From Bactericera cockerelli (taxonomy: Eukaryota > Arthropoda > Insecta > Hemiptera > Triozidae): 64,000 nucleotides of DNA. The stretch is from NCBI GenBank assembly GCA_024516035.1, contig CM044965.1, positions 28,384,919 through 28,448,918 on the forward strand, given 5' to 3'. The position numbers and the translations under genes were made by a program. The stretch's first letter is position 1; every line of letters begins with the position of its first letter. The notes under the pieces were generated by a model that was not told the origin of the DNA, made no database searches, and was given only the letters and a program-made list of their open reading frames with translations. Shown in pieces: positions 1-58,381 of this stretch.

Positions 1-283
1 AAAAGTGTTTAGACACTCTAGGGTTGGGTGGAAGATATTACGGAGTTCTGGGATGCCAACTCAAGTGAAGTAAAAAGGGTTTAGACTCTCTAGGGTTGGG
101 TGGAAGATATTCAGGAGTTCTGGGATGCCAACTCAAGTGGAGCGCTGAAGAGTCAAGCTGATGAGTTCTAAGCTGTTTTTAGTGTATTTTATATTTTTAT
201 TATTCTATTTTAGAATTTCATGCTTGTATTTACTTGTACCACATTTATATTGACCAGGAAAACAGTAATAAATAAATAAATAT
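1..283 (+). repeat. Short tandem duplication and probable LINE 3' remnant
   Basis: A unit of about 73 bases starting with 'gtttagac' and 'ctctagggttgggtggaaga' occurs twice (about 1-66 and 74-136). It is followed by an AT-rich stretch that ends in (aata)n just before 'gcatgcc'. The ending resembles the 3' tail of a non-LTR retrotransposon. The opposite arm near 20935-20985 has only one unit and lacks about 165 bases of this tail, so this is a left-arm-specific insertion or a right-arm deletion. No intact reading frame is present. Confidence 0.4.
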
Positions 284-935
284 TAGCATGCCTGTTTTAC
301 ATGTTTCCATTTCTTTGTATTCATTGCATATGTTTTCTATAACCAAATAATTTATACTATAATAGCGTTGTATGTTAATTCTTTGCCATCAAGTGTAACG
401 CGACAAAAATATCTTAATTAAATTTATAAGTATACTTCCGTGCCTGTTTACAGCCTAAGAATTCCTTATCTCTGTAGCTAATCACATATTCTTTTACTAA
501 TAATAAAACTGTAAAATATTAAAAAAAAAAAAAAATAATAATAGACTTCTGCCGTGTCCTAAGATTCTATCTTGGTTCTAATGTACTGTCTAACCTGATA
601 ATCAGAAATATATACTTGTTAACATTACCAACATTTCAGTGCAAAACATAATATATATTATTGCTCTGTCTAGTACACCCGGGTGGTGTTATGTCATACA
701 CATTCATGTCCGAAAAAATGACAAAAATAGCATATCCTCCCGTCTGACCCGTACAGTCTCATCTCTCATCCCCGGAGGTTCTCACAATAGCCCCTCACTC
801 GGAGGAGGAAGCAATACCTACGGAAAGGTTAATAGGATATGTCAGCTACAAGAGGAAGTAGAATTACTTGTGTGGGATGTTGACAAAAATCATCTTTTTA
901 GTTTCCTTGATTAGGATATCGAATATCAACAGCAA

Positions 936-1030
936 GCCAGCCTGGGTGGTTGTAGGTAGATGTTGTGAATTTCCAGAGAGGGAGGGTAAAACCCCCGACC
1001 TGATACTCCTGATAATTTCAGGACGTAACA
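936..1030 (+). repeat. Tail fragment of 5S-derived SINE, left arm
   Basis: Contains 'cagcctgggtgg', 'gagggtaaaacccccgacct' and 'aggacgtaac', which match the 3' body of the 5S-headed SINE (see 12312-12552), without the 5S head. The mirror copy is at about 20365-20455. Confidence 0.55.
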
Positions 1031-2300
1031 ATCTAATCTGAACGACTGAATTCTCCTAACTTGACGAAAAGTTTTTTTCCATGATCGCTCTTGGGTTTGT
1101 TTTACATATTTGCAAAAGAGTTCAAATTCCTCAAGGAAACTGTAGACAGTGGCATATGAATACTTTTCTCAGCAAAAAATCTCGGTAGTGGTTGTCAATG
1201 GTCTGTCGAGTTAAACTTAATTAAAGGCTTACGTAGGGTGGTTAAGGTTGATTCAAGAGTTAATGCAGCGTGAGCTAGGTACCTCAGGAGGAAAATAGGC
1301 TTTCTGACTTTTCAGTCCTCAAAAAAATTTAAGTAGTCAGGATGTGCGATCAGCTATCAGCGAAAAAAAGTGATTACCACATCATCTGATGAGAAAATTA
1401 CCTCATTTCTATAACATAAGAGATAATGAGAAAAGTGCAATTTTTGATCACATAGAATGCTCATATTTTTTATTTTTCTAGTGTGTTTGCAGGAGCAAGT
1501 ATTAGGAACTTGTAGTTTTTGTATGAGGACGTACATAATGGCAGGTCACAGGCAGTAGAATTCTTAGAAGATATAATTATAAAGAAAGAATAGAAAAGAA
1601 AGAAAAAGAAAAAAAAGAGAGAAGAGATGATGAAAAAGTACTTACTGAGGTTATTGTGCAGAAAAAAGATGACGAAAAAGTACTTACTGAGGTTATTGTG
1701 CAAAGAAAGAAATGCTAATAATTATCGCAATGGAAAGGGTTAGTAAACGTAGGTAGTTCAACTAGTTCTCAGAACAAAGGAATAAACATTCAAGAAATGA
1801 GAAAGAGTGGTTAGAAAAAGAAGAGAGATGAAATATTGTGAATTGAAAATGGAAAGAAAATGAAGATCACATGCAGAAACAAGTGGAAGGAAAAACAGGC
1901 AAACAATCATTGACTTAAAAATAATATAGGTGGGTTAATTACTAAAAAGTCTGGCTTGGGGACTTTAAATAGGGAGTAGACCAGCATTGACTTGGTTATG
2001 AGTGCTGAGTCATTTCTCTACTATCTGGCTACCATCGTTCACGATGGCGCCACCCTATGATGATGATTACTAAAAGTAGAGAAGATTGCAAGATGAAAAG
2101 CAGAGATTACAAGAAGAAGTATTGATGAAGTACATAGTAAAAAAAAAACTACAGGAATTAAAAGGCAAAGAAAAAAGATGTTGAAAAGGTTATAAAAATT
2201 ACTTCTAGAAATACGCCTTACATAATTATGTACATAATAACAAAACATGCTAACTAACCAAGTTTTTTGTGTACAAGAAAAGGTGTTGTTGAATGCATAT

Positions 2301-2306
2301 TTTATT
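2301..2306 (-). terminator. Candidate polyadenylation signal, left cuticle gene
   Basis: AATAAA on the minus strand, about 550 bases past the ancestral stop. It is conserved at the mirror position 19092-19097. No cleavage evidence is available from sequence alone. Confidence 0.35.
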
Positions 2307-2830
2307 GTGAATGTACTCTGTTGTGACTTCCTTAGTTCAACAACAACAACAAAAAATACCTATTACTTTTGCAACTTTTCTTGCTCAAGATATGTACATT
2401 TTGAAGAGTACAAAAGTTATACAGAGTTCCATAGATTTTATATGACTAGGTATTAATTTCTTAATGATGGACCATGTTTTTTTAAATCAGTCTGGCAATA
2501 CAGGAATGCATTTTTTTTCTCAGATATCACAAGCTATCTTTCAATTTCCACGCCTCTGTTTAGAAAGGTATTCTCAATCAGAGTATCGTGATTTTAGAAC
2601 TTTGCCTATTATCAATGTCAATTATGGATAAAAAATTTCAGAAATAATAATCAAGAAATTCATTAACAGAATATTGATTGAAATTAAAAGATATCTAGTG
2701 CTATCAATAGCTTGTTCTTTGACAAATGATCAAATCGAGCTATTTTCAAAACTCTCGAAATCCTCTTGTAAAATTTGGCAGTAGTAGATACTCTTCTCCA
2801 GTGGAAAGTCAAGTTTCATGTTCTTTATCA

Positions 2831-5800
2831 CTAGATAGTAGTTGTGGCTTCAGTTGTTGAGTTTAATGGCGGTAGGCAGGGTAGTAAGGAGCAGGGGGGT
2901 AGTAGGGTGCGGGGTGGACTGGTGCGGGTGTGCGGGTCTAGGGGCTGGGGTGGTGGGGGCAGGAGCGGGTGCAGGGTGGGCTGGTGCAGGGTAGTATGGT
3001 GCGTAGTATGCAGGCACTGGGTAGTGTGGGACAGGTGCGGTCTAGGTGCGGGGGTAGTGGGGGACTGGTGCTGGGGCAGGTGCGGGGTGGGTGCTGGTCT
3101 AGGTGCAGGGGCGGGTGCGGGGTAGGCTGGGTAGTATGGAGCGGGATAGTAGGGCACTGGGACTGGTGCGGGTGCTGGGGCTGGGGTGGGTCGGGGTGCG
3201 GGTGTCGTGGGAGCAGGTGCTGGGGCGGGTGCGGGGTGGGCGGGGTAGTATGGAGCGAAGTAAGCGGGCGCTGGGTAGACGGGGGCGGGTCTAGGAGCGG
3301 GGGTGGTGGGGGCTGGTACTGGTGCGGGAGTTGGGGCGGGAGCGGGTGCGGGATGAGGCGCATAGGCATAGACCGGTGCGGCATACACGGGGTAAGGAGC
3401 TGGCACGGTCTTCACGAGTGGAGCGGCATGTTCAACCTTGGGCAGGATAACAGGGGCGACAACAGGTGCGGGGGGGAGGTGAGGGGTGGGGATTCTGACA
3501 ACTGGAGCGGGTGCTGGTGCGGGAGCGGGTGTAGGGCGTGGTGCGGGGGCGGGTGCGGGTGCAGGCACGACAGGGGTGTGGACTACGGGCACGGGGGCGA
3601 CACGCGTGACCTCAGGCACGATGGTGTCGACGTGGCGCAGGGGGGCGGGCACCCTCTCCTGGATGACGGTGTGGGGGGGAGTGGGGAGGTGGCCTGGGGG
3701 ACATTCATTACATAATAGTGCTGGTTATATTATTTTGCTATACACACAGTTATAATAAATTGAGATATTATTATCTGGTTAGTTGGTTGGTTAGTATGGT
3801 TCGGTTTCATTGGAAACTCCGTACAATTAGCTTGGTGAACTCATTAAATCTATTGTGACCATTATTTTTTTAGTGACAAAGTAAGTTGCTTTCATGTATT
3901 TGCAGACTTCTACATAATTATAATTTGCCAAAAAAGAAACATACGGAAAGTATAAGTTTTCAATAGACACTTATTGATAATGCACCAAAAAACAAGAGAT
4001 TTTTTAGAATGATTGGAAAGTGATAGATGACTGACTCACTAGTAATCCATTTCTTTATTTTACAATGTACAAGCAGCGGACTCGTGACATGAAGGATGGT
4101 GGTTCGAGTCCCTAGTATGGCATGTAAGGTGAGTTCGAGTAAATTACCATAAAATTGTTGAAAATTATCCGCACCTAAACCACAACCATCAAACAAGAAA
4201 TAAACATAAGCTCATCATCCCTAGAGTAAAACACAACAGTTACGCATACATGGGAGTCAAACTTTACAACTCTATACCTGAACATACTAAACAACTAGAA
4301 TTAAAATGGTTTACATTAAAATTAAAAGAACTAATAATACCTACACATAGAACCCTATTCAAATGAGGAATTTCTCACCAAAATTACAACAGAAAGATAG
4401 TAAATTTGGAGAGAAAATAATAATAATTAAAGACACATAGACATATACATAAATAACACTTTATGATAGTTATATATTTCATTCTGCTCATTTATATTTG
4501 TATTGTATTAATTTTTTTTTTTAATTAATTTATCTGATTTTTTTTTATCATTACTTTTTTATATTAATATATATATCCTTGTACCACACATGTATTATGT
4601 TTAGCGTGCAAATAAAATCTTATCTTATCTTACCATTGGGATTAACACAAAAGCGTCTTCTTTACTTTGTCTTTGCCTAAACCTACTTTGAGTCAGCATC
4701 AGAGTGATTACCACAATTTTAATCAATCTTATTAGTCCGGGTTTTATTTCTATTTTATTTCTATAAGTTTTTTAACTATTTTATTTCAATCTTGTTAGTT
4801 CATGGTTGGTCAGGTACTCACCCAGGTCCGGCTTGTAGATGGTGGACTGGTAGCCGGCGATGTAGGGCTGGGGAGCGTAGTGTACGGTCTTGGTGTAGGC
4901 GGTGCCCACGTGGGCGGGGACTACGTGGGGGGCGGGCACATAGAGGGGGGGATGGGCGGCTCCCACGGCCAGCAGAGCGGCGAGGATGATGCACTGGGGC
5001 AGCGAGAAGACAAAAGTAGATTTTAAAAAGAGATACAATCACATACCTAAATGAACAAATATTTTTTTAAAAAGATGTAAGGGGAAAGCTCAGGCCGAAA
5101 ATTTTAGTCAGGCATAGACGGTATTCATGGCTGTCTACCCTAACTAAAACCCGTGGCTCCTCGTCAAAGCTAAACCATGCCGTTTCATTGTGGGACATCT
5201 AAATAATGTTTCTTTACCACATTAAGAATAAAGATATGTTCTGTTATTTATGTCCTGTCTCGTATAAAGACAATTTTCTTGTTAACATTTTTAGTCATCT
5301 TGGTTTTCACATAAAATTTGATTGGTTGATTAATCTAGGATGTAAGTATTATGTTACATTGTATTATATTGATAATTATCGATAATTTTGCTCATCAAGC
5401 ATGTAATTATGAATCTTCCACTCAGCGGAGATGAAAGAAAGCGGCCTAATATTAAAATGACCGGGGTTGACTTTTTGACCTTTGAGCTTACAAGATTCAC
5501 TCTGGGGTGGATGCTCTGTCTCAAGGCCTGATAGATTTCTGTGTATGGACTCCTGTGCTTCATGTATCTTAAGTGCTTAATAAGTTCAAAGGGATCCATG
5601 CTTAAGTGCTACATTAAAAACAGGATTATATTAATAATAATATCACCTTATTTCTACTGCCCGATTAGGACTAATGAGTTCCATTTTTCCAGCAGTAAGC
5701 CCAAGATCTATTACTATGTGGTCAAAATCAAAAATGGGAGGACAACTTGTTATGTCCTGGTTGGTTTCAAACTCTTGACCTCTGGATTACCAGTCATACG

Positions 5801-8008
5801 CTTTGACCATTGACCTGACGGGACATTCAAATTACGATAAGCCAGACACGCCCTCACGTTGGAATTGCAACCAATAACAGTCCACTATAGCCCGAGTTGA
5901 GGAAAACTATGGCTTATCTTTACTTTAATCGTGTAAGTTGGCCTTTGGTGACTTTAGTCATATGCTTGCCTGTTGCCTACTTTTAGACGTAGGTCTGGAT
6001 TTCTTATTCTAGCATCAGTCGTTTTATGTCATTACTAGCGGGCTGTCGCCCGCTTTGCGGGCCGAGGCATGGCCGTGAAAGCAAGAAATCCTTTTTCGCC
6101 AATGGCAGGTGTTGTAGTGGGAGTTTCGAAAAATCCCGTCTTATTGCACATCTAGACTATAAAACAAAGCTACCTACAAATTTCAGCTTCCTAGGACTTA
6201 CGGTTTGGGCTGTAGAGCAATGATCAGTCAGTGAGTGGTCAGTCAGTCAGTGACTTTGACATTTATATATTAAGATTATGTAGTTGAATTGTCAAATACA
6301 TGTGGAAAATTTCATATTTCATGCTTTGCAAAGGATTCGAAACAACGTATGCCTATTACGCAACCTGGACCACTAGATAATAGTCTAGCACCCTTATCAC
6401 AAGGACTAGCAATTCACTATATTCAAATGCGTCGACTTAAAATAATTTAATCATAAAAATATAAATTGTAACTTTTTGTCCTATTTTTTACTATCATTTT
6501 AGGGGTTTCACCCTCCACAGTAAGGTAGAATTACCTAAGGAGGAGTTTTTTTTCTCATTAATTTATGTACTAAATAATAAAGAATAATCAAATAGCACGA
6601 GCTACCAACATTTACCTCGCCCAGAATCCGTTGGGTCGGAAAAGTATTTTACTCAAATTATATTTGCCAGCGTGAAGTTAAGTAACGTCTAGCGAGGTTA
6701 GGACTTGTATTGGTGATCATTCAAGTTCAAACCCTCTTGATGCTTGCTTTTCCCGCCCCCACACAGGCTGGGTGAAATTAATTTTAGTAGCTGGTTTTTT
6801 GATTATATGGAGGGTGAAACCCTCGTCATGATATGACCATGCAGTTGAAAGAGACGTTCAACCCAAATTAAAAAATAAAATCAAGTTACCACCTTCACAA
6901 GCACGATGCAAGTTCACGCTGTCAACAGCGCAATTAAAAGAAAAATCTAAAACGCTCCCTGCAAGGCACGTTGAAAAAATAAAGTTCAAAAGCGCAAGCA
7001 AAGTTTGAATAGCTCTCGACATGGTTAAAAATACCTTGATTGGCGTCAAACAAAGGAGAAAAAGCGGGATTGCAATGAGAACGAGAAAATATAATGGGAG
7101 TCACGTTGTGCGACCCACCGCTTGCGAAAATATTTGCAAGGGAAGACGTAGGTGTAGCAGCTTTCAGTCAGAGAACTAGGGTTCGAGTTTTACTCGACAT
7201 TTTTTTAGAAAATATCAATTAGGATAAATTTATTTTAAATTACAATGACTAAGAGAAGAGAATTTCAACTTCCGAGGAGAGCTTTAGGTATCAGGAGTAA
7301 AACAACAGCAACAGCAGGTTCAAGACCTCGTTAAAGTGGTTTAAGAAAGAAAAAAATAGTAATAAAACAACCATTAATGACGAGAAAAACGGCAAATATT
7401 TATGTTAATGAAAGTCTATTTACAATGATTCAAAGTCCATTTACATAATTATATTGTATGTTGGTCACTACCACTGACATGTGGTAATGTCACAAGCATG
7501 CAAGCTGCATTGCTGTGATACATTCCTATGGAAATTTTTTGAAATTCATTTCAACTCCTAGATCCGAATTATGAAACAGGATTAGATTAACTAATCCTAG
7601 TATCCTAAACTATTCCTGAATACTCTCTCTGGTGAGAAATTTAACCAATCACAGTGCATTTATATCAGCTGTTAAGTGATAGTGCCTTGGATTAACAAAT
7701 CCTAGATGTTATTTGATCCTGCTTCATAATTCGCTTTAATGACGAGTATTTTTTGAGTTCAAAATATGTTGTGTAAAAAACTTTCTTGCCTAACTTTTAA
7801 TGAATCGATACTCGGTAGTTAGCAGTGGACTTTAGAAGGTTAGGGTTCGAATCCCAGGAGTCGCCCACATATTTAACATTTTATCAGTGGTTAGTAGATC
7901 AGACTTTATCAATTCTATTTAGATATTTTGATGAGTAGATGCTATTAAATTGAAAAAAACTTTTTACCAGAAAAGATGTTCTATTAAGCTACTTACGAGT
8001 GAGTTCAT
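2831..8008 (-). CDS. Pro/Ala-rich cuticle-type protein, left copy, frameshifted C-terminus
   Basis: Three exons on the minus strand: 7997-8008 (codes MNSL), 4822-4993 and 3693 down to 2831, all with GT-AG borders. The product starts with a signal peptide (MNSLCIILAALLAVGAA), then PLYVPAPHVVPAHVG and a long low-complexity region of PAPAP, YYPAPYY and TTPAPRP blocks, typical of insect cuticle proteins rich in Pro, Ala, Tyr and Val. Relative to the right copy, exon 3 lacks one 150-base unit and has four small indels near 3000-3080 and 2920 (-1, +1, -1, +2). The last part is therefore out of frame: it becomes His/Thr/Pro-rich, misses the ancestral stop at 2863-2865 and runs to a TAG at 2831-2833 (348 aa). 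The indels lie in C runs, so sequencing error and pseudogenisation are both possible. Expected role: secreted structural component of the exoskeleton. Confidence 0.8.
4060..4143 (+). repeat. tRNA-headed SINE, family C, left arm
   Basis: Contains 'agcggactcgtgac' followed by 'ggtggttcgagtccctagta', which resemble the anticodon-arm region and pol III B box of a tRNA. Family C copies recur at 16805-16895, 23838-23950, 26944-27140, 28715-28805, 32330-32400 and 46838-46905. Confidence 0.5.
4151..4636 (+). mobile_element. 5'-truncated non-LTR retrotransposon, left arm only
   Basis: The segment is flanked by TTACCAT on both sides (4144-4150 and 4630-4636). It encodes the C-terminal end of an ORF2-like protein with GVKLYNSIPEHTKQLELKW and a stop at about 4364, then a 3' region ending 'aaataaaatcttatcttatc'. 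The mirror site in the other arm (about 16800-16812) is empty, reading straight from 'aaattaccat' into 'tgggatta'. Truncation, a simple-repeat tail and a target-site duplication fit target-primed reverse transcription. The clade is not certain. Confidence 0.75.
5618..5825 (-). repeat. tRNA-headed SINE, family B, left arm
   Basis: On the minus strand it runs from a degraded tRNA-like head through 'cccattttt..accacata' to 'ctgctggaaaaatgg' and 'cctaatcgggcagta'. This matches the better preserved copies at 27923-28133 and 46624-46835. The mirror copy is 15706-15870. Confidence 0.6.
6035..6275 (-). mobile_element. Non-autonomous Helitron, left arm
   Basis: On the minus strand it starts TCTTAATATATAAATG and ends with the hairpin GCGGGCGACAGCCCGC followed by TAG, giving the CTAG terminus. 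It sits between A (6276, read as complement) and T (6034), the usual Helitron target, with no target duplication. Length is 241 bases. It matches the pair at 47258-47721. It has no coding capacity, so it would need Rep/helicase from an autonomous element elsewhere. Confidence 0.85.
6665..6877 (+). repeat. 5S-derived SINE, left arm
   Basis: Contains 'gaagttaagtaacgtctagc', related to the 5S rRNA internal control region, then 'aggctgggtgaaatt', 'ggagggtgaaaccctcg' and 'catgcagttgaaagagacgt'. The mirror copy is at 14822-15030. Confidence 0.7.
7565..7733. mobile_element. MITE with CGAATTATGAAACAGGAT ends, left arm
   Basis: Terminal inverted repeats CGAATTATGAAACAGGAT and ATCCTGCTTCATAATTCG bound about 169 bases, with 'aaccaatcacagtgc' inside. 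Relatives lie at 11876-12008, 13960-14121, 32098-32206, 38409-38527 and 59580-59690. No protein is coded. The superfamily is not assigned because no clear target-site duplication is visible. Confidence 0.65.
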
Positions 8009-8075
8009 GGCGGTTCTTTGGTCTTGGGCGGAGGAGTTCACTCGTCCAACTAAACTTGAGGAAATCGGTTGACTG

Positions 8076-8107
8076 TGGCTGTCTCCTGGATCCAGATCGG
8101 TTTTATA
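8076..8107 (-). promoter_or_regulatory. TATA promoter of left cuticle gene
   Basis: On the minus strand, TATAAA lies at 8107-8102 within 'gagaaaatataaaaccga'. The predicted start is about 30 bases downstream near 8076. The 5' leader runs about 70 bases to the ATG at 8008. The whole block is nearly identical in the other arm. Confidence 0.7.
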
Positions 8108-8521
8108 TTTTCTCGGCGAAGGGGTGGCTAAGGTCGCGGTGTCTATAAATAAGTCGCCGCGCCGCACAGGCCATAGATCTTACGGCGGAAAGTCGCGTGA
8201 TATTAGATATAGTATGGACCACAACAAAAGGATAGAATGACGGAGTTTCTATTTCTGGGTTGAGGACAGCACAGTGCTTGCTCTCGGGTTTTCACTTTAT
8301 TGACAACTTTAGAATAAGATTACAACAAGGATAAGGGATAATCCCTCATATTTTCAGAGGTTGGACATTGGGTTTACTCCTCAATCCTGGAAATATAGTT
8401 CCGTAGACCATCGGCCAGGGAACGTTGATGGTTCCCAAAACAAGCCTCAAGACAATTTGAAGGTACAGAGACGGTCAAAATTCTGCACAAAAGAGTAACT
8501 GGTTTATGGAGGTTTTGGGCC

Positions 8522-8743
8522 CTATAATAATAATAATACTGCTCTTTAGTGGAAGGTAACCACCAGGCGAGGTTAATACTCAAAGCATTTTCTACCACTT
8601 AACCCTCAGAGTCTTATTATTATGTGGTTACAAACTCAAATTAATGAGGAAAAATTCATGCACTGAGTGGGATTCGAACCAACGGATCCCTACACCTCCT
8701 GGATTACCAGACTAGCGCGTTAACCACTTGACTACCAGTGCAC
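8522..8743 (-). repeat. tRNA-derived SINE, family A, left arm
   Basis: On the minus strand: A box in 'tggtagtcaagtggttaacg', B box in 'ggttcgaatccca', then the core 'gaccacataataata'-like block and the tail 'cctggtggttaccttccact'. It is a full-length copy of about 220 bases, not a functional tRNA, since the tRNA-like part continues into a SINE body and occurs many times. Confidence 0.85.
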
Positions 8744-8949
8744 GGCCCTAGTACCCTTTCTGTATACCACAGAAGAATAATTAGGAAATATATTTCTTAT
8801 CCGAATATTTCATACATGGGATTGGTAGAATGTCAATTCCACAAAGGTCTTTCCAAGAAATATCTCGGATTAAGTTTTCTCTCGGTATTCCCTCAACTTT
8901 TTTTTATAAATGCAATCATATTATAATAATAATAATATAATAATAATGC

Positions 8950-9232
8950 TTTTTCTTTGTGTTATTATGTCACAATTTTAGTGGGTAGCGCAGAATCATA
9001 GGACTTTACCACTTTAATTTACAATATCTTGTATTATTTTTTTTTTGCCTAAGATTCTGCCACTGGTCGCTGCTTCACATTAAAGCAGCTACTCATTTTT
9101 CCTCACGAGGTATGAGTAGACCCCGAACATCCAAGTACAGAGCAGAAAAAATCCTCCCCCGCTGGGAATCGAACCCAGGTCACCATGTGTGCAATGCCTA
9201 GCGCGCTAACTCACTCTGCCACGGTGACTACT
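8950..9232 (-). repeat. tRNA-headed SINE, family G
   Basis: On the minus strand it begins 'gtcaccgtggcagagtgagt' (A-box-like), has B box 'ctgggttcgattccc', then 'ctcatacctcgtgagg' and a 3' end 'gctacccactaaaattgtg'. It is the same family as 10083-10378, 49897-50040 and 58063-58310. Confidence 0.75.
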
Positions 9233-9672
9233 ATGCAATCATATTATTATTTACTAATTTGACCTTTTGTGAAGGACCTCATTCGACATAGTTATTTATC
9301 CACTATCCAGTATTTCGCAAATCGTGGATTTTCTTTCTTGCAGTCTCTGTAATGTCTGGGGTTAGTAGAGCCTGGGTGTCTGCCCTGAAGCGTTATCCAG
9401 CCTGTGTTGGGCCAATATATTGCTACATTAACCACGGGAGGTTTTTATCACGCATGCATTCAATTTTCCACATGCTTACCGTTATCACGTATAGATAATA
9501 ATTCTGTCCTAGAGGCACTAAAGCTCATCTAAGAATGGACAAAGTAATATATAACATGTACATAAATGTACAAGTAAGTAGTTTGAATTAATGATGTGAG
9601 ATACTGGTACAAACAAAGCTATAAAAATATACAATAAACGTATTCCTAGTTAACGTGTCGTTTTATAATACA

Positions 9673-9735
9673 GCTACTCAAATTAACCTTACCCAGCCTG
9701 ATTGGGGCTGGGAATAGCCAATAGAAAGTGGATTG
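9673..9735 (-). repeat. 5S-derived SINE fragment
   Basis: Contains 'gctactcaaattaacctta', 'cccagcctgattggggctgg' and 'gaatagcca', the middle of the family body. Both ends are missing. Confidence 0.45.
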
Positions 9736-10082
9736 GATGATGAACACGATTGATTCGGACCAGAACGTTTACCAAAGCATGTCCTCATCAGTCTGTATGT
9801 CGCTTAACTTCAGTGCCTATTACTCCGCTAGCTTAGAACGCGGCGCCGGCGCCGGCGTGCAAAATGTAATCAGCCTTGCCAACCTAGCAGGAAGATTTAA
9901 ATTACACCAATAAGGTTTTAAATGAGTATTTCAACTTTGTTGTCCTTCACCCGAAATTTTTAATGTGTCTTGTTATCATTATTGGAGTGTTAAATAACTT
10001 GCCATGCCTTGGTCAAAGTGCCAAAAAGCTGATCGGTGCAAAGCAACGTTGCTAGTTTATAAAAAATAGTTATGTATCATGG

Positions 10083-10378
10083 AGTAGTCACCGTGGCAGA
10101 GTGAGTTAGCGCGCTAGGCATTGCACGTATGGTGACCTGGGTTCGATCCCCAGCGGGGCAGGAATTTTTTCTGCTCTGTACTTGGATGTACGGGGTCCAC
10201 TCATACCTCGTGAGGAAAAATGAGTAGTTACTTGTATGAGTAACGACCAGTGGCGGCATTACCAGAGTAAAAAGAAATTAATGTAATAGAATAATTCGAA
10301 AAGTAAAGGAGGCTCTTAGTAATGCTGCGCTACCCACAAAAATTGTGAAGAGGCCTTGTGCTTCACCACAAATAAAAT
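10083..10378 (+). repeat. tRNA-headed SINE, family G, full length
   Basis: Head 'caccgtggcagagtgagtta', B box 'gggttcgatcccca', body with 'ctcatacctcgtgaggaaaa' and 'acgaccagtggcggcattac', tail 'gctacccacaaaaattgtga' then 'ccttgtgcttcacca'. It is the best preserved copy of this family in the window. Confidence 0.8.
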
Positions 10379-10832
10379 CATACCTACCTAGTTATGTATC
10401 ATGGCTCATGGGTCTATATAAACTATTTTTGCTCAGCTAAAGGAAATCCGCACAAATAACCATGTAATTAATATAGCAACCATTAGGAGTAGAATGTGTG
10501 TTAAATCAATGAGGCTAATTATTCATGAATGAATCAAGACTAAATAGTTCTATAATAATTATTAGAAACACTTCGATTGTACGATTGTTAAATACATACC
10601 TAATAATCGTAGTTTAGTGTCATAGTAAATACCTTTAGGATAATCGTGATTCATTTATGTATGTAGATTGTAGAGTACTTTGATACCAGAGGAGCGTTCA
10701 GTACGTAAACTTGGCACTTTCTATAAAAAATAATAGCATTACTACTAAAATGGAAATTTACTAAATCGTGGGTAGATTTCTTTTACTCGTACAATCAAGG
10801 TTGAAGATTTACAATTCTATTATTAACCGGGG

Positions 10833-11015
10833 TTTTACGTCCCATTCAACTGCATGGTCATCTCAAAACGAGGGTGTTTAACCTCCACTCGCAGGAAACT
10901 CACAAACCTGCTTACCACATTAACTACACCCAGCCTGGGTCACCTCGCTGGACGTTACTTAACTTCGCTGATCCTACTAGACCGGTGCATTCAACACGCC
11001 ATCGATGCTGGCTGT
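10833..11015 (-). repeat. 5S-derived SINE with internal deletion
   Basis: The plus strand shows 'caactgcatggtcatctc', 'ggaaactcacaaacctgc', 'acccagcctgggtcacctcg', then 'ctggacgttacttaacttcg' and 'gtgcattcaacacgccatcg'. The usual segment between the last 'cagcctg' and 'cctcgctgg' is deleted. Confidence 0.75.
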
Positions 11016-11282
11016 TTATATTATGTTTGTTTTTTTTTTATCAATTAGCCTTTGACTATAATAGTAAGGTTTTGTTGAATTAAAATCAATAGACCTTACA
11101 TTAAATCATTGATAAACGCACCCTAAGTAAACTTTCGGAATCATACACAAAATTTTCATGACGTACCTAGTGGCTTGTTCCCACGTTATCCTGCCTGCGT
11201 CACGTAACCCGAGAACGAACACGCGTTTTCAAAGCAGAAATGCTAGGTATCCGGAAAACACGTGGTGTTACGTGCACCTTGG

Positions 11283-11803
11283 TACCTACGTCATACACGT
11301 GGTCATGGTGTAGTGGTGTTGCGCTCACTCTAGTAGCTACGTCATACACGTGGTCATGGTGTAGTGGTGTTGCGCTCACTCTAGTACCTACGTCATACAC
11401 GTGGTCATGGTGTAGTGGTGTTGCGCTCACTCTAGTACCTACGTCATACACGTGGTCATGGTGTAGTGGTGTTGCGCTCACTCTAGTACCTACGTCATAC
11501 ACGTGGTCATGGTGTAGTGGTGTTGCGCTCACTCTAGTACCTACGTCATACACGTGGTCATGGTGTAGTGGTGTTGCGCTCACTCTAGTAGCTACGTCAT
11601 ACACGTGGTCATGGTGTAGTGGTGTTGCGCTCACTCTAGTACCTACGTCATACACGGGGGTCATGGTGTAGTGGTGTTGCGCTCACCCTATTACCTACGT
11701 CATACACGTGGTCATGGTGTAGTGGTGTTGCGCTCACTCTAGTACCTACGTCATACACGTGTCATGGTGAGTGGTGTTGCGCTCACTCTAGTACCTACGT
11801 CTG
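11283..11803. repeat. 51-bp minisatellite, about 10 copies
   Basis: Units start at 11284, 11335, 11386, 11437, 11488, 11539, 11590 and 11641, then two or three degraded copies. The unit begins 'acctacgtcatacacgtggt' and ends 'gcgctcactctagt'. Because 51 is divisible by three and the unit lacks stops in some frames, long repetitive reading frames arise on both strands (11200-11664 minus, 11240-11671 plus). They are by-products. Each unit carries TACGTCA and CACGTG. Confidence 0.92.
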
Positions 11804-11875
11804 GTTTATCTTTGGGAGAACGGTCTGGTTTATCTTTGTTGTAGGTGATCCTGTTTTATAATAAGGCTCTTAGGG

Positions 11876-12008
11876 CCAAAATAATAAAACAGGATTAGAA
11901 TTCATAAAGCCAGACTGAATGTCCCTTAACTAATGAGCTGAGATTGGTTGAAATTTTGACTTTCAAGCGTGTCTGGCTTAGCTTAACTTTAATCCTGATT
12001 CATAATGA
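11876..12008. mobile_element. MITE, spacer copy
   Basis: Ends 'aataataaaacaggatta' and 'aatcctgattcataatg' are related to the MITE ends at 7565-7733. The interior has 'gagattggttgaaatttt' and 'gtctggcttagctta'. A further degraded relative follows to about 12125. Confidence 0.55.
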
Positions 12009-12311
12009 GAACCTAGAGCTAAATAATAAAACTCGTATTTTCCCCCTAAACACAGCGTACTATAGCCAGATTTGAGTTATAGTCTAGCTTATCTTAAATT
12101 CCATACTATTTTATAATTTGACCCTTAGTCTTCATTTATGTTTGGTGTGTACTGCGTGTAGGGATGCACCTGCACCTGGTACACGCCTTTCTACAATGGT
12201 TACATTGGTAATGGTTATAAAGTGTCCGTTGTGTTGCTGATTTCTCCATTAGCGATAGTGCAACTGGGGATCTGTTCATCATGAAAAATCGGTCCTTTTT
12301 GGGGGAGGGGG

Positions 12312-12552
12312 TTAAAGTCCCCTTCAATTTTACTGCATGGTCCATATCACGACGGGGTTTTACCCTCATTCGCTGGAAACTCACAAAAAGCTACTCAAAA
12401 TTAACCTTACCTGGCTTGAGTGTTTTTCGGGAATAGCCACCATCACGAGAGCGAATTTGAATGGTCACCCATCCAACTCCTAGCCTCGCTGGACGTTGCT
12501 TAACTTCAAAGACAGAACGAGAACTGGTGTATTGAACGTGTCATGAACGCTG
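12312..12552 (-). repeat. 5S-derived SINE, near full length
   Basis: On the minus strand the head reads 'cgttcatgacacgttcaata', then 'ccagttctcgttctgtc' and 'gttaagcaacgtccagcgag', then 'ggatgggtgacc'. These track insect 5S rRNA in order, including the C-box region of the internal promoter. They are followed by the unrelated body with 'aggtaaggtta' and 'gggtaaaaccccgtcgtgat'. Confidence 0.85.
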
Positions 12553-12821
12553 GCAAATCGGTCATTCTCATGAATCAATAAATCTTATGAACGCCTGTAT
12601 ATTCTTCAATTTATGCAATGTGCGGAACAAGCACGTTGAATATGAAACTTGACATTTACAATGATGTACGCAGGCAGCCACCTATTACCTCTCTTCTTCT
12701 TAGCTCTCCTACGTGCATTCGTTCATAACAAAAATATTGTTTCTTTGAAAGTCAATTTCATGGATTTTGATCCAATTTCCATTGAGATATTTCTATGTGC
12801 TTCTTCTTAGGGGGTTCTTTA

Positions 12822-12921
12822 NNNNNNNNNNNNNNNNNNNNNNNNNNNNNNNNNNNNNNNNNNNNNNNNNNNNNNNNNNNNNNNNNNNNNNNNNNNNNNN
12901 NNNNNNNNNNNNNNNNNNNNN
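12822..12921. other. Assembly gap of 100 N
   Basis: Exactly 100 N, the usual placeholder for a scaffold gap of unknown size. Its right edge coincides with the inner end of the right arm, so the true spacer length and the physical join of the two arms are not established. Confidence 0.99.
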
Positions 12922-12966
12922 CCACCAACCCCATGTACTCGTATGAAATATTTGGATAAGTCAACT

Positions 12967-13178
12967 GGTAGTCAAGTGGTAAACGCGCTAGTCTGGTAAT
13001 CCAGGTAGTGTATGGATCCGTTGGTTCGAATCCCACCCAGTACATGAACTTTTTCCTTATTAATTTGAGTTTAGTAACCACATAATAATAAGACTCTGAG
13101 TTAAGTGGTAGAAAATGCTTTGAGATTAACCTCGCCTGGTGGTTACCTTCCACTAAAGAGCAGTATTATTATTATAGG
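12967..13178 (+). repeat. tRNA-derived SINE, family A, right arm
   Basis: Mirror copy of 8522-8743: 'tggtagtcaagtggtaaacg', B box 'ggttcgaatccca', core 'accacataataataagactc' and tail 'ggttaccttccactaaagag'. Confidence 0.85.
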
Positions 13179-13179
13179 C

Positions 13180-13520
13180 CCAAAACCTCCAAAAACCATT
13201 TCACTCTTTGTGCAGAATTTTGGCCGTCTTTGTAGCTTCAAACTGTCTTGAGGCTTGTTTTGGAACCAATCAACGTTCCCTGGCCATGTCTACGGAACTA
13301 TATTTCCAGGATTGAGGAGTAAACCCAATTTCCAACCTCCAAATATGAGGGATATCCCTTATCCTTGTGGTAATCTTATTCTAAATTGTCAATAAAGTGA
13401 AAACCCGAGAGCAAGCACTGTGCTGTCCTCAACCCAGAAATAGAAACTCCGTCATTCTATCCTTCTGTTGTAGTCCATACTATATCTAATATCACGCGAC
13501 TTTCCGCCGCAAGATCTATG
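13180..13520 (+). other. Unexplained conserved segment upstream of cuticle promoter
   Basis: About 340 bases between the SINE and the promoter are well conserved between arms (mirror 8170-8515). An AATAAA sits near 13391 ('gtcaataaagtgaaaacccg'). It could be the 3' end of another transcript broken at the gap, or upstream regulatory sequence. No open frame is convincing. Confidence 0.3.
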
Positions 13521-13584
13521 GCCTGTGCGGCGCGGCGACTTATTTATAGACACCGCGACCTTAGCCACCCCTTCGCCGAGAAAA

Positions 13585-13618
13585 TATAAAACCGATCTGG
13601 ATCCAGGAGACAGCCACA
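13585..13618 (+). promoter_or_regulatory. TATA promoter of right cuticle gene
   Basis: TATAAA at 13585-13590 in 'gagaaaatataaaaccga'. The expected start is near 13615-13618 ('cacagtcaacc'), leaving a leader of about 67 bases before the ATG at 13684. A second AT-rich 'cttatttatagaca' lies about 40 bases upstream but is less well placed. Confidence 0.72.
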
Positions 13619-13683
13619 GTCAACCGATTTCCTCAAGTTTAGTTGGACGAGTGAACTCTTCCGCCCAAGACCAAAGAACCGCC

Positions 13684-16600
13684 ATGAACTCTCTCGTAAG
13701 TAGCTTAATAAAACATCTTTTCTGGTACAATAAAAAGTTTTTTTTTCTCAATTTAATAGCATCAACTCATGAAGATCTCTAATAAAATTGATAAAGTCTG
13801 ATCTACTAACCACTGATAAAATGTTAAATTTGTGGTCAACTCCTGGGATTCGACCCTAACCTTCTAAAGTCCACTGCTAACTACCGAGTATCGATTCTTT
13901 AAAAGTTAAGGATGAAAGTTTTTACACACAATTTTGAACTCAAATACTCGTCATTATAGCGAATTATGAAACAGGATCAAATAATATCTAGGATATTTGT
14001 TAATCCAAGGCACTTCACTTAACAGCTGATATAAATACGCTGTGATGGTTAAAATTTCTCACCAGAGAAGTGTTAAGGGATAGTGTAGGATTAGTGTTAA
14101 TCTAATCTGTTTCATAATTCGAGACCTAGGAGTTAAATGAATTTCAAAGAATTTCCACAGGAATGCATCACAGCAACGCAGCTTCGCATGCTTGCATTAC
14201 CACTATGTCATGGTAGCGACAAGTTTTAAAACAATTAATTATGTAAATGTTTCAGAGTACTTTGAATCATTATGCTTTCATAACATAAATTTTGCCGTTT
14301 TTCTCGTCATTATGGTCGTTTTATTATATTATTATTCAAACACTTTAACGAGGTCTTAAACCTGCTGTTGCTTTGTTTTACTCCTGATACATATCCTAAA
14401 GCTCTCCTCGGAAGTTGAAATTCTCTTCTCTTTAGTTATTGCAATTTAAAATAAATTTATCCTAATTGATATTTTCTAAAAATAATGTCGAGTAAAACTC
14501 GAACCCCAATTCTCTGACTGGTAGCTGCTACTGCTACTCCTACGTCTTCCGTTGCAAATATTTTCGCAAGCGGTGGGTCGCACAACGTGACTCCCATTAT
14601 ATTTTCTCGTTCTCATTGCAATCCCCTTTCTCTCCTTTGTTTGACGCCAATCAAGGTATTTTTAACCATGTCGAGAGCTATTCAAACTTTGCTTGCGCTT
14701 TTGAACTTTATTTTTTCAACGTGCCTTGCAGGGAGCGTTTTAGATTTTTCTTTTAATTGCGCTGTTGACAGCGTAAACTTGCATCGTGTTTGTGAAGGTG
14801 GTAACTTGATTTTATTTTTTAATTTGGGTTGAACGTCTCTTTCAACTGGGTGGTCATATCACGACGGGGGTTTCACCCTCCATATAATCAAAAAACCAGC
14901 TACTAAAATTAATTTCACCCAGCCTGTGTGGGGCCGGGAAAAGCAAAACATCAAGAGGGTTTGAACTTGAATGATCACCAATACAAGTCCTAACCTCGCT
15001 AGACTATTAACTTACGCTAAAGACGAATTTTCTAAATACCTTGTGACCAAGGATTCGGGCGAGGTATTTGTAGTGGTCATTTTATTTTCTATTAGACATA
15101 TTTGATTAAATCCTTTGGTCACAAACATGAGAAGATGAAATCTCCACATGATATTGACAATCAACTACATTAATAATGAATTATAAGTCGACGCATGTGT
15201 GACAGGTAACTGCTCGTTTTGTGAAGGTGTCTTATTTTATTTCAATGGTACGTCTCTCAATGGTCATATACGGGTTCACTCCATTTCAAAGAACATGTAT
15301 AAATATTCACCACCTGTGGGGCCAAAGAACTAAAAGGTTGAACTTAAGATATAAAGTCAACTCCTAGACTTACTTAATCCTCAATGAAATGCTAATACGT
15401 TAAGGGCACGATTATTGGTCAATTTAGGTAGGGGTTGTTGGCTTGATCATAAATTATGAATCTCCACTAGCTCATTTGGAAACGATTATCAAGGCTACAT
15501 AATATGACATATCGACTGCAGTAATACATGAGGTCTTGTATAGCTTAGTCTTAATGAATCCAGACCTACGTCTCAAGTAGGCACAGGAAGCATGTGACTA
15601 ATCCAAGCCACTTACAGATTAAAGTAAGATAAGCAACTTTTCTCAACTTAGCTATAGTGGGCTGTTATTGTTGAATTCAACGGAGGCGTGCGGCTTACGT
15701 AATTTAATTCCTACTCAATGGTCAAACGTATGATGGTAATCCAAGGTCAAGTTTGAAACACCGACATACAAGTTTCTCCATTTGATTTGCACATATAATA
15801 GCTTGGGCCACTCTGAATAATGGAACTCATATCCTATCGGCAGAGAATAAGGTGATATTTTATTATATAATCCGTTTAATTAGCACTAAAGCATGATCCC
15901 TTGAACTTAAGATACATGAAGACAGGAGTCCATACAAAAACCATCAGCTTGAACAGAGCTCCACCCCAGAGTGAACTTTAGTCAAAGGTCAAAAAGTCAA
16001 CCCCGTCATTTTAATATTAGGCCGCTTTCTTTCATCTCCGCTGAGTGGAAGATTCATAATTACATGCTTGATGAGCAAAATTATCGATAATTATTAATAT
16101 AATACAATGTAACATAATACTTACATCCTAGATTAATCAACCAATCAAATTTTATGTGATAACCAAGATGACTAAAAATGTTAACAAGAAAATTGTCTTT
16201 ATACGAGACAGTACATAAATAACAGAACATATCTTTATTATTAATGTGGTAAAGAAACATTATTCAGCTGTCCCACAATGAAACGGCATGGTTTAGCTTT
16301 GACGAGGAGCCACGGGTTTTAGTTAGGGTAGACAGCCATGAATACCGTCTATGCCTGACTAAAATTTTCGGCATGAGCTTTCCCCATATATTAAAAAAAA
16401 AATATCTGTTCATTTATATGATTGTATCTCTTTTTAAAAACTACTTTTGTCTTCTCGCTGCCCCAGTGCATCATCCTCGCTGCTCTGCTGGCTGTGGGAG
16501 CCGCCCATCCCCCCCTCTATGTGCCCGCCCCCCACGTAGTCCCCGCCCACGTGGGCACCGCCTACACCAAGACCGTACACTACGCCCCCCAGCCCTACAT

Positions 16601-18543
16601 CGCCGGCTACCAGTCCACCATCTACAAGCCGGACCTGGGTGAGTCTACCTGACCAACCATGAACTAATAAGATTGAAATAAAATAGTTAAAAAACTTATA
16701 GAAATAAATTGAAATAAAACCCGGACTAATAAGATTGATTAAATTTGTGGTAATCATTCTGATGCTGACGCAAAGTAGGTTTAGGAAAAGACAAAGTAAT
16801 CCCAATGGTAATTTACTCGAACTCACCTTACATGCCATACTAGGGACTCGAACCACCATCCTTCATGTCACGAGTCCGCTGCCTTAGACATTGTAAAATA
16901 AGGAAATGGATAACTAGTGAGTGATCTATCACTTTCCAATCATTCTGAAACATTTCTTGTTTTTGGTGCATTTATCAATAAGTGTCTCCATAGAAAAGTT
17001 ATATTTTCTGTGTGTTTCTTCTTTATCAAATTATTATGTAGAAGTCTGCAAATAAGTACATGAAAACAACTTACTTTTTCACTAAAAAAAAATAATGGTC
17101 ACAATAGATTTAACACGTTTCGTTACCAAGCCAATTTTTTCAAGTTTTACGTAGGGACCAGGCGGTAAAGTCGCTGTTGCATCCTGGGTACCAAAATGAT
17201 TTTTTTTGCATATTTGGCATCGTATTTGTACAAGAATCGATCCTATATCTGTTCTAATACTAACAACCTACCTCAAAAAGGCCATATATGGATGTCCGGT
17301 CCCTCGTTAAAATTTTGATAACGGCCACATGTGTGTTTCGGTCCCTCGTTAAAATTTTGATAACGGCCACATGTGGCCGTTCGGTAACGAACGTGTTAAT
17401 GGGTTCACCATTTCACCAAGCTAATTGTACGGAGTTTCCAATGCAACCAAACCATACTAACCAATCAACTAACCAGATAATGATAAATCAATTTATTATA
17501 ACTGCGTGTATGCTTTATACAGCAAAATAATATAACCAGCACTATGTAATGAATGTCCCCCAGGCCACCTCCCCACTCCCCCCCACACCGTCATCCAGGA
17601 GAGAGTGCCCGCCCCCCTGCGCCACGTCGACACCATCGTGCCTGAGGTCACGCGTGTCGCCCCCGTGCCCGTAGTCCACACCCCCGTCGTGCCCGCACCC
17701 GCCCCCGCCCCCGCACCACGCCCTACACCCGCTCCCGCACCAGCACCCGCTCCAGTTGTCAGAATCCCCACCCCTCACCTCCCTCCCGCACCTGTTGTCG
17801 CCCCTGTGATCCTGCCCAAGGTTGAACATGCCGCTCCACTCGTGAAGACCGTGCCAGCTCCTTACCCCGTGTATGCCGCACCGGTCTATGCCTATGCGCC
17901 TCATCCCGCACCCGCTCCCGCCCCAACTCCCGCACCAGCACCAGCCCCCACCACCCCCGCTCCTAGGCCCGCCCCCGTCTACCCAGCGCCCGCTTACTTC
18001 GCTCCATACTACCCCGCCCACCCCGCACCCGCCCCAGTACCTGCTCCCACGACACCCGCACCCCGACCCACCCCAGCCCCAGCACCCGCACCAGTCCCAG
18101 TGCCCTACTATCCCGCTCCATACTACCCAGCCTACCCCGCACCCGCCCCTGCACCTAGACCAGCACCCACCCCCGCACCTGCCCCAGCACCTGCTCCCAC
18201 GACACCCGCACCCCGACCCACCCCAGCCCCAGCACCCGCACCAGTCCCAGTGCCCTACTATCCCGCTCCATACTACCCAGCCTACCCCGCACCCGCCCCT
18301 GCACCTAGACCAGCACCCACCCCCGCACCTGCCCCAGCACCAGCCCCCACTACCCCCGCACCTAGACCCGCACCTGTCCCACACTACCCAGTGCCTGCAT
18401 ACTACGCACCATACTACCCTGCACCAGCCCACCCTGCACCCGCTCCTGCCCCCACCACCCCAGCCCCTAGACCCGCACCCGCACCAGTCCACCCCGCACC
18501 CTACTACCCCCCTGCTCCTTACTACCCTGCCTACCGCCACTAA
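13684..18543 (+). CDS. Pro/Ala-rich cuticle-type protein, right copy, intact
   Basis: Exons 13684-13695, 16467-16638 and 17564-18543 have GT-AG borders. Phases fit (0 after exon 1, 1 after exon 2) and total 1164 bases, 387 aa plus TAA. Exon 1 codes only MNSL. Exon 2 completes the signal peptide (CIILAALLAVGAA, cleavage expected before HPPLYVPAP) and adds a YTKTVHYAPQPYIAGYQST segment. Exon 3 starts GHLPTPPHTVIQERVPAPLR and is then almost entirely Pro/Ala repeats (PAPAPAP, YYPAPYYPAYPA, TTPAPRP), ending PAPYYPAYRH. This composition, the secretion signal and the tiny first exon fit insect cuticle proteins of the low-complexity AP-rich type. No chitin-binding Rebers-Riddiford domain is visible. 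Exon 3 is extremely C-rich against an AT-rich background. The mirror gene at 2831-8008 is divergently transcribed. Confidence 0.88.
13960..14121. mobile_element. MITE, right-arm copy
   Basis: Mirror of 7565-7733, with ends CGAATTATGAAACAGGAT and ATCTGTTTCATAATTCG. It lies in intron 1 of the intact cuticle gene. Confidence 0.65.
14822..15030 (-). repeat. 5S-derived SINE, right arm
   Basis: Mirror of 6665-6877, with 'cacgacgggggtttcaccct' and 'cacccagcctgtgtggggcc' on the plus strand. The 5S-like head near 15000-15030 is diverged. Confidence 0.65.
15706..15870 (+). repeat. tRNA-headed SINE, family B, right arm
   Basis: Diverged mirror copy of 5618-5825, with 'actcaatggtcaaacg', 'gtaatccaaggtcaag', 'gcttgggcc' and 'aataatggaactcatatcct'. 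Many small changes are present. Confidence 0.45.
16805..16895 (-). repeat. tRNA-headed SINE, family C, right arm
   Basis: Mirror of 4060-4143, with 'agggactcgaaccaccatcc' and 'cacgagtccgctgcctta' on the plus strand. It is directly adjacent to the empty LINE target site. Confidence 0.5.
17114..17395. mobile_element. TTAA-flanked MITE (piggyBac-type), right arm only
   Basis: Ends CACGTTTCGTTACC and GGTAACGAACGTG are inverted repeats, and TTAA flanks both sides (17110-17113, 17396-17399). The mirror site in the left arm has a single TTAA ('cattaaatc' near 3843-3851) and no element. TTAA target duplication is the hallmark of piggyBac transposons. The element is 282 bases, non-coding, and contains an internal duplicate of 'ggtccctcgttaaaattttg'. 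It lies in intron 2 of the intact cuticle gene. Confidence 0.85.
18041..18340 (+). repeat. In-frame 150-bp tandem duplication inside cuticle exon 3
   Basis: Two consecutive 150-base units (18041-18190, 18191-18340), both starting 'ctgctcccacgacacccgca', encode two copies of a 50-aa block containing TTPAPRPTPAP, PYYPAPYYPAYPA and RPAPTP. The left gene copy has one unit. The duplication preserves the frame. Confidence 0.9.
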
Positions 18544-19091
18544 ACTCAACTAACTGAAGCCACAACTACTATCCAGTGATAAAGAACACGAACTGGAGAA
18601 GAGTCTCTACTACTGCCAAATTTTACAAGAGGATTTCGAGAGTTTTGAAAATAGCTCGATTTGATCATTTGTCAAAGAACAAGCTATTGATAGCACTAGA
18701 TATCTTTTAATTTCAATCAATATTCTGTTAATGAATTTCTTGATTATTATTTCTAAAAAAAATTATCCATAATTGACATTGATAATAGCCAAAGTTCTAA
18801 AATCACGATACTCCTGATTGAGAATACCTGTCTAAACAGAGGCGTGGAAATTGAAAGATAGCTTGTGATAAATGAGAGAAAAAATGCATTCCTGTATTGC
18901 CAGACTGATTGAGAAAAACATGGTCCATCATTAAGAAATTAATACCTAGTCATATAAAATCTATGGAACTCTGTATAACTTTTGTACTCTTCAAAATGTA
19001 CATATCTTGAGCAAGAAAAGTTGCAAAAGTAATAGGTATTTTTTGTTGTTGTTGTTGTTGAACTAAGGAAGTCACAACAGAGTACATTCAC

Positions 19092-19097
19092 AATAAA
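19092..19097 (+). terminator. Candidate polyadenylation signal, right cuticle gene
   Basis: AATAAA about 550 bases past the TAA at 18541-18543, conserved in the mirror arm. It is the first canonical hexamer seen downstream. Confidence 0.35.
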
Positions 19098-20364
19098 ATA
19101 TGCATTCAACAACACCTTTTCTTGTACACAAAAAACTTGGTTTGTTAGCATGTTTTGTTATTATGTACATAATTATGTAAGGCGTAATTTTCTAGAAGTA
19201 ATTTTTATAACCTTTTCAACATCTTTTTTCTCTTTGCCTTTTAATTCCTGTAGTTTTTTTTTACTATGTACTTCATCAATACTTCTTCTTGTAATCTCTG
19301 CTTTTCATCTTGCAATCTTCTCTACTTTTAGTAATCATCATCATAGGGTGGCGTCATTGTGAACGATGGTAGCCAGATAGTAGAGGAATGACTCAGCACT
19401 CAGAACCAAGTCAATGCTGGTCTACTCCCTATTTAAAGTCCCCAAGCCAGACTTTTTAGTAATTACCCACCTATATTTTTAAGTCAATGATTGTTTGCCT
19501 GTTTTTCCTTCCACTTGTTTCTGTATGTGATCTTCATTTTCTTTCCTATTTTCAATTCACAATATTTCATCTCTCTTCTTTTTCTAACCACTCTTTCTCA
19601 TTTCTTGAATGTTTATTCCTTTGTTCTGAGAACTAGTATAGAACTGCCTACGTTTACTAACCCTTTCCATTGCGATAATTATTATCATTTCTTTCTCTGC
19701 ACAATAACCTCAGTAAGTACTTTTTCGTCATCTTTTTCTCTACACAATAACCTCAGTAAGTACTTTTTCATTATCTCTTTCTCTTTTTTTTCTTATTTTT
19801 TCTTTATCTCATTCTTTCTTTATAATTATATCTTCTAAGAATACTACTGCCTGTGACCTACCCATTATGTACGTCCTCATACAAAATACTACAAGTTCCT
19901 AATACTTTGCTACCTGCAACACACTAGAAAAATAAAAAAAAATATGAGCATTCTAATGTGATCAAAAATTGTACTTTTCTCATTATCTCTTATGTTATAG
20001 AAATGAGGTAATTTTCTCTGTAAGTTTCTTCTCATCAGATGATGTGGTAATCACTTTTGTTTCGCTGATAGCTGATGCCATCCTGATTACTTAAATATTT
20101 TGAGGACTGAAAAGTCAGAAGCCTATTATTCTCCTGAGGTACCTAGCTCACTCTCCAATACTCTGCATTAACTCTTGAATCAACCCTACAAAATTGTTTT
20201 GCTGAGAAAAGTATTCATATGCCACTGTCTACAGTTTCCTTGAGGATTTAGAACCCTTTTGCAAAATAATGTAGAACACCAAGAGCGACCCATGCGAAAT
20301 ATTTCAGGAAACTTTTCGTCATGTTAGGAGAATTCAGTCGTTCAGATAAGATTGTTACGTCCTG

Positions 20365-20455
20365 AATAATTCATCAGGAGTATCAGGTCGGGGGTTTTAC
20401 CCTCCACTCTCTGGAAATCAGAACATCTACCTACACCCAGGCTGGCTTGCTGTTG
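20365..20455 (-). repeat. Tail fragment of 5S-derived SINE, right arm
   Basis: Mirror copy of 936-1030, with 'cgggggttttaccctcca' and 'cacccaggctgg'. The 5S head is missing. Confidence 0.5.
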
Positions 20456-21169
20456 ATATTCGATATCCTAATCAAGGAAACTCAAAAAGATGATTTTTGT
20501 CAACATCCCACACAAGTAATTCTACTTCCTCTTGTAGCTGACATATCCTATTAACCTTTCCGTAGGTATTGCTTCCTCCTCCAGTGAGGGGCTATTGTGA
20601 GAACCTCCGGGGATGAGGGATGAGACTGTACGGGTCAGACGGGAGGATATGCTATTTTTGTCATTTTTTCGGACATGAATGTGTATGACATAACACCACC
20701 CGGGTGTACTAGACAGAGCAATAATATATATTATGTTCTGCACTGAAATGTTGGTAATGTTACACGCGTATATATTTCTGTTTATCAGGTTAGACAGTAC
20801 ATTAATACCAAGATAGAATCTTAGGACACGTTATCTGAGTTTATTATTTATTAGTATTAAATTATTTATTAGGTAATATAGACCTATGCAATGATTACAA
20901 AGAAATGAAAATAATATAAACATGGCATGCTAATATCTACCATCCAACCCTAGAGAGTCTAAACCCTTTTTACTTTCCTTATTTTACTTCCCTCACCCAA
21001 AAAAAAATGATCCTATTTTATCTGGGCGTCCACGTGCCTTCTACTACTTTGAGATTCATGGTCACAGTAGTTTTAAGAGGTCGGTGTGATAATTGGCGCT
21101 TCTTTTTTGGAACTCAAACCAATGTATAATAATAATAATGAGATCGATGGGGATTTCATATAATAATGA

Positions 21170-43514: not shown

Positions 43515-43678
43515 GACCCATGATCAGATATAAGCTAGAAGTGCTATCAGAGCCATGATCAAACACAAGCTAAAAGTTCTATCAGATTCATGATGAAACA
43601 CAAGCTAGAAGTACTATCAAGACACATGATCAAACATAAGCTAAAAGTGCTATCAGATTCATAATCAAACACAAGCTA
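43515..43678. repeat. 35-36-bp satellite, left part
   Basis: Units of the form 'aagctagaagtgctatcaga' plus 'ttcatgatcaaacac'. About four degraded units precede the retrotransposon insertion at 43679. Confidence 0.85.
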
Positions 43679-58062: not shown

Positions 58063-58310
58063 GTGGTTTTTCGTGTGCTTTTATGTTAGAACTTTAGTGG
58101 GTGGCTCAGCATTACAAGACTCGTCATAAAATCATTTGTCCAGATTACATATTAGAGTATTCCTTCTCGTTGTACTGCCGCTGATTTGACTGGTTGCTAT
58201 CCAAACAAATAATTACTAACTTCTAATCACAAGTACGAGTGGATTCCGTACCACACAAAGTATAGAATTTTTTTTTTTATACACAGTCGAGATTCGAACC
58301 TGGGTCAACT
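58063..58310 (-). repeat. tRNA-headed SINE, family G, diverged
   Basis: The plus strand has 'agaactttagtgggtggctc', 'gactggttgctatcc', 'gtggattccgtaccacacaa' and 'gtcgagattcgaacctgggt' (B box complement). It ends about 70 bases before the acceptor of the first coding exon. Confidence 0.6.
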
Positions 58311-58381
58311 GCGTTCAATCCACGTGCGCTACCAATTATTACAATAGTAACAATAGTTCATTTCCTTCTTGTGTTCCAGGC

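Follow-up and report, generated by a model that had tools for sequence, protein, structure and literature searches.

Mirror-image arms flush with a scaffold gap in the psyllid Bactericera cockerelli: very probably two allelic contigs joined in the wrong relative orientation

The palindromes of mammalian Y chromosomes have nearly identical arms, which are kept alike by gene conversion. Mirror arms and a spacer are common to these palindromes and to the locus of Bactericera cockerelli described here. However, substitutions and insertions set the arms of the psyllid locus apart, and one of them ends at an assembly gap. A second system with similar features is false heterotype duplication, where both haplotype copies end up next to each other on the same scaffold, separated by a gap, and a gene is falsely added (PMC9516828). 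Half read depth, gaps between the copies, discordant read pairs and one-copy k-mers are given as marks of false duplications (PMC9516828). The present locus resembles these cases in its adjacent copies, its gap and its additional gene, but its copies are oppositely oriented, while the word "inverted" does not occur in the main text of that study.

Artefactual duplicates on opposite strands were described by the curators of the Diaphorina citri v3 assembly (PMC9632033). As in the present case, the organism is a psyllid and the copies, which are only putatively allelic here, lie side by side; the RunxB duplicates of D. citri are found on opposite strands (PMC9632033, PMC9933525). The v3 assembly was built from Canu unitigs with an N50 of 29 kb from pooled adults, which were joined by Chicago and Hi-C scaffolding, and it had 23,672 redundant scaffolds (PMC11659978). 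Its rounded totals imply approx. 1 kb of Ns per Chicago join and approx. 100 Ns per Hi-C join (PMC11659978). A gap of 100 Ns, as observed here, would match only the Hi-C joins of that assembly and not the Chicago joins.

The window, i.e. the whole stretch of 64,000 nucleotides that was analysed, was compared with itself. The inverted matches formed one single chain from left-arm position 68 (right arm 20975) to left-arm position 8739 (right arm 12964), composed of 151 exact segments of at least 13 bases with 5583 anchored bases. The two arms had 3960 13-mers in common, whereas 20 simple base shuffles gave 4.35 on average and never more than 12. At the inner end, the similarity could be extended by eye from left-arm positions 8796–8828 to right-arm positions 12960–12922 and thereby up to the base adjoining the Ns; positions 8796–8827 of the left arm were aligned with 29 matches, 3 mismatches and 2 indels. 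The left arm (68–8828, plus strand) is the putative allele 1 at the overlap end of a left contig and the right arm (12922–20975, minus strand) the putative allele 2 at the overlap end of a right contig. The initial annotation had proposed mirror arms at this locus, and they were recovered by the chain and the 13-mers with coordinates that agree within about 10 bases.

The only run of Ns in the window is the 100-N scaffold gap at 12822–12921. The right arm starts at 12922 on the first base behind it, which is consistent with the earlier description. A gap between the copies, flush with one of them, is thus found here as in false heterotype duplication. The spacer extends from 8829 to 12821 and would be the part of the left contig past the overlap. 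When 8828–12821 was used as query (E ≤ 1e-3), 21 blastn matches were obtained in 20986–64000; they were scattered and none was longer than 212 columns. The spacer contains a long and regular minisatellite at 11282–11801 (51-bp unit, 10.2 copies), and another one is located at 34405–34950 (24-bp unit, 22.8 copies). 5S-rRNA-like sequences were detected at 12435–12554 and 33762–33885 (minus) with 41 and 44.2 bits at an Rfam cut-off of 38. The pair lies inside a dispersed repeat family and is perhaps a 5S-derived SINE.

At the outer edge, the left arm passes into a 72-bp tandem repeat (1–139, plus strand, 1.9 copies) which reaches base 1 of the window, so that no boundary can be seen there. Right-arm sequence past 20975 gave no blastn match within the first 67 bases of the window. 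The arm limits reported initially were correct as coordinates, but position ~67 could not be retained as a true boundary in view of the tandem repeat, and the arms may extend past the visible outer edge. A true inverted duplication would be expected to reveal, at some point, arms that end against unique DNA. Such an end was not seen on both arms, as the right one begins at the gap and the left one reaches the window edge. This layout is what two contigs overlapping at their ends would give, with base 1 as a putative contig end.

In a cheap-gap alignment of six blocks, 160 of 6706 columns (2.4%) were substitutions; this count omits left-arm positions 1–552, 1178–1245, 2803–2818, 3840–3843, 4151–4661, 6002–6668 and 8740 onward. 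The four main blastn blocks between the arms had 3.7, 6.0, 4.1 and 4.3% substitutions. A fifth block with 4.8% overlaps the first one in exonic repeats, and the short outermost block (277–359) was worse than the rest with 12 mismatches in 82 columns. Forced global alignment resulted in 14% mismatches, or 6.6% over seven blocks, and these values are high because the alignment runs through insertions. The longest identical run between the arms was 149 bp. Homogenisation of the arms by gene conversion, which is typical but not required of a natural giant palindrome, was not found, given 2.4–6% substitutions together with insertions. Left-arm positions 6085–6659 showed a weak and gap-rich alignment to the right arm with a score of 209, while 30 shuffles reached 113 at most. 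Thus, this segment is not simply unrelated to the right arm.

Each arm carries a private insertion. A 282-bp element whose terminal inverted repeats nearly match and which is flanked by TTAA at either end is present only in the right arm (17114–17395, minus strand), and the left arm has a single TTAA near 3840 at this site. An insertion similar to a LINE 3' end, a label given by inspection, is present only in the left arm (4151–4629, plus strand). It has TTACCAT on both sides and is followed by 17 further extra bases; one TTACCAT is found near 16804 at the corresponding site of the right arm. Close to the insertion sites, the arms show minor additional differences. A tRNA-like SINE occupies the equivalent place in the left arm (8524–8743, minus strand) and the right arm (12964–13175, plus strand) and was therefore inserted before the arms separated.

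Further mobile elements were observed elsewhere in the window. A stretch of 1.66 kb at 61735–63396 matched its own reverse complement over the full length with 91.9% over 1674 columns. It begins and ends in sequence like ACAGGGTGTCCCACC and looks like a fold-back transposable element. At 43665–44894, the open reading frame of a LINE was found, for which Pfam indicated an RNase H domain. A search of 2514 candidate proteins gave 23 matches at E ≤ 0.001. Of these, the first seven were named as Cacopsylla, Diaphorina or Cyamophila, with Cacopsylla melanoneura (56% identity over 99%) and Diaphorina citri (65% over 61%) at the top; two of the lower matches were named as beetles and 14 were without a name. 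Psyllid sequences are thus closest to this LINE, and this single transposon points to a psyllid as the probable source of the window.

Both arms contain a copy of the same gene, with exon limits predicted by inspection of splice signals. The left copy (2863–8008, minus strand) has exons at 8008–7997, 4993–4822 and 3693–2863, and small indels in a C-rich part disturb its frame close to the 3' end. The right copy (13684–18543, plus strand) has exons at 13684–13695, 16467–16638 and 17564–18543 and is open with 387 codons plus stop. A TATAAAA-like sequence is located upstream of exon 1 in both copies. A 150-bp exonic repeat is present with 2.4 copies in the right arm (18017–18369, plus strand), and the left arm is short by about one unit. 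The 387-residue product of the right copy has a repeat region rich in Pro, Ala and Tyr and, as judged by inspection, a start similar to a signal peptide. The protein, shortened by four residues at its start (383 aa), matched no Pfam family at E ≤ 0.1, and hence no chitin-binding domain of the R&R type. No relatives were obtained at E ≤ 0.001 among the 7999 candidates with most words in common, a list probably filled by low-complexity words, or among 80 candidates of another protein search. The gene named in the initial annotation can thus be traced in both arms, but its designation as a cuticle gene, for which composition was the sole basis, found no support in Pfam. The product may be a low-complexity cuticle protein without domain. 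A literature search for cuticle proteins together with inverted duplications or palindromes in insect genomes found no report, which is no proof of absence. Open frames at 58220–60841 are candidate exons of a clip-domain serine protease homologue, with a Pfam match (CLIP_1) only at 60473–60841.

Over 334 compared codons, the coding sequences differed by 12 synonymous changes (about 290 sites) and one nonsynonymous change (about 712 sites). For this comparison, four of the 388 codons of the right copy (including stop) were set aside for indels and 50 as missing from the left copy. The count depends on one placement of the exonic repeat, and another placement adds a second Ala/Val difference. 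This pattern suggests that both copies were probably under selection through most of their divergence. As the changes are mostly synonymous, the damage to the left frame would be recent or a sequence error; a duplicate in decay could have such a frame as well. Taken together, the substitutions, the private insertions and the synonymous bias fit alleles or young duplicates alike.

The loss of bases was strongly one-sided in one part of the alignment. In the three bins covering left-arm positions 5400–6001, the right arm had 54 single-base losses, 14 losses of two to five bases and one longer loss, i.e. about one per seven aligned columns. The left arm had two losses, one of them of a single base, with 497 matches and 8 mismatches. 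The corresponding right-arm sequence at 15557–15960 (minus strand) is probably a stretch of low quality. Outside these bins, single-base losses were balanced with 52 in the right and 48 in the left arm (by subtraction). A weaker excess in the right arm was seen at left-arm positions 7400–7800 (15 versus 5 single-base losses), while it was reversed at 1000–1800 (20 in the left versus 9 in the right arm). Within a SINE inside the stretch, the right arm lacked a base in 25 columns where the left arm and two or more of three other copies in the window had one; the reverse was found in one column. The stretch was picked after viewing the alignment, which used cheap gaps, and the binomial test was carried out on totals of 68 versus 3, while the bins give 69 versus 2 when the longer gap is counted.

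Unpolished long-read consensus yields base losses with few substitutions. The right contig was probably weakly supported at this stretch because ordinary divergence should add substitutions as well. The losses are thus probably sequencing error, which does not by itself prove allelism. Homopolymer error is not claimed as a general cause of the indels, since 28 of 48 single-base indels in the first alignment had no like base alongside. The arms had been described as diverged in the manner of alleles; this fits the data, except that some of the differences have the look of base-calling errors in the right arm.

A real inverted duplication, with divergently transcribed gene copies at least 4 kb apart and a gap that hides the inner end of the right arm, was considered unlikely. 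Both arms retain the gene structure and the upstream TATAAAA-like sequence, the copies have few nonsynonymous changes, and assemblers tend to break at palindromes, all of which would agree with such a duplication. The right arm would, however, have to reach its inner end within the gap, precisely at the point where the match ceases to be visible, and the outer end would have to lie at the window edge or past it. Moreover, a long identical tract from recent gene conversion is lacking at a longest run of 149 bp, and the one-sided base losses suggest that few reads supported the right contig. The natural giant palindrome that had been envisaged initially is therefore less supported than an artefact, with one arm flush with the gap and no breakpoint seen on both arms.

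Allelic arms in opposite orientation would also result if the haplotypes differed by a heterozygous inversion or another true rearrangement and one scaffold had received both arrangements. This is highly improbable: it is not needed when a small misoriented contig explains the orientation, and no inversion breakpoint is visible within the window. Hairpin and template-switch artefacts, in which one molecule is read on both strands, give rise to inverted copies too, but copies of one molecule should not differ by insertions with duplicated flanks in each arm, and 12 synonymous substitutions versus one nonsynonymous would be unexpected. Such an origin has next to no probability and was rejected on account of the private insertions and the coding pattern.

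The mirror arms are very probably an assembly artefact in which two allelic contigs with overlapping ends were joined in the wrong relative orientation. This is favoured because the match is flush with the gap, no breakpoint into unique DNA is seen on both arms, the coding changes are nearly all synonymous, the insertions are private and a right-arm stretch looks unpolished. The left contig (ending at 12821 and starting at base 1 or before it) and the right contig (from 12922) would be two alleles of one locus whose ends overlap by ~8–9 kb. The assembler would have left them unmerged because of the insertions, the substitutions and the unpolished stretch. The scaffolder would then have placed the two side by side across a nominal gap of 100 Ns, with the left contig wrongly oriented, and the overlap would thereby become a mirror image. 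Both the allelism of the copies and their misorientation during scaffolding are most likely on these grounds. A reversed haplotig beside its allele, as already considered in the initial annotation, is better supported than a palindrome by the flush gap, the mostly synonymous changes, the private insertions and the unpolished-looking stretch. An allelic copy in reverse is consistent with the data, but the layout points to two contigs with overlapping ends rather than to a haplotig wholly inside its allele. Against an artefact, 2.4–6% substitutions are high for the two alleles of one individual, and the outermost block exceeds even this range, although pooled individuals, as used for D. citri v3, would allow such values. 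Alleles and a young duplication under selection cannot be told apart by sequence alone.

The locus shows warning signs that can be read from the sequence of an assembly by itself: inverted copies of which one abuts a gap, differences of the kind seen between alleles, and a segment where bases are lost from one copy only. There is a small chance that the locus is a fairly young inverted duplication in this psyllid, comprising a pair of divergently transcribed genes for Pro/Ala-rich, probably secreted products with a shared spacer, which were both kept by selection. In that case, the locus could serve as a natural test of divergence in inverted duplicates with a shared spacer. If the arms are an artefact, as is favoured here, they would inflate gene counts and feign a palindrome and a common promoter region where there is neither.
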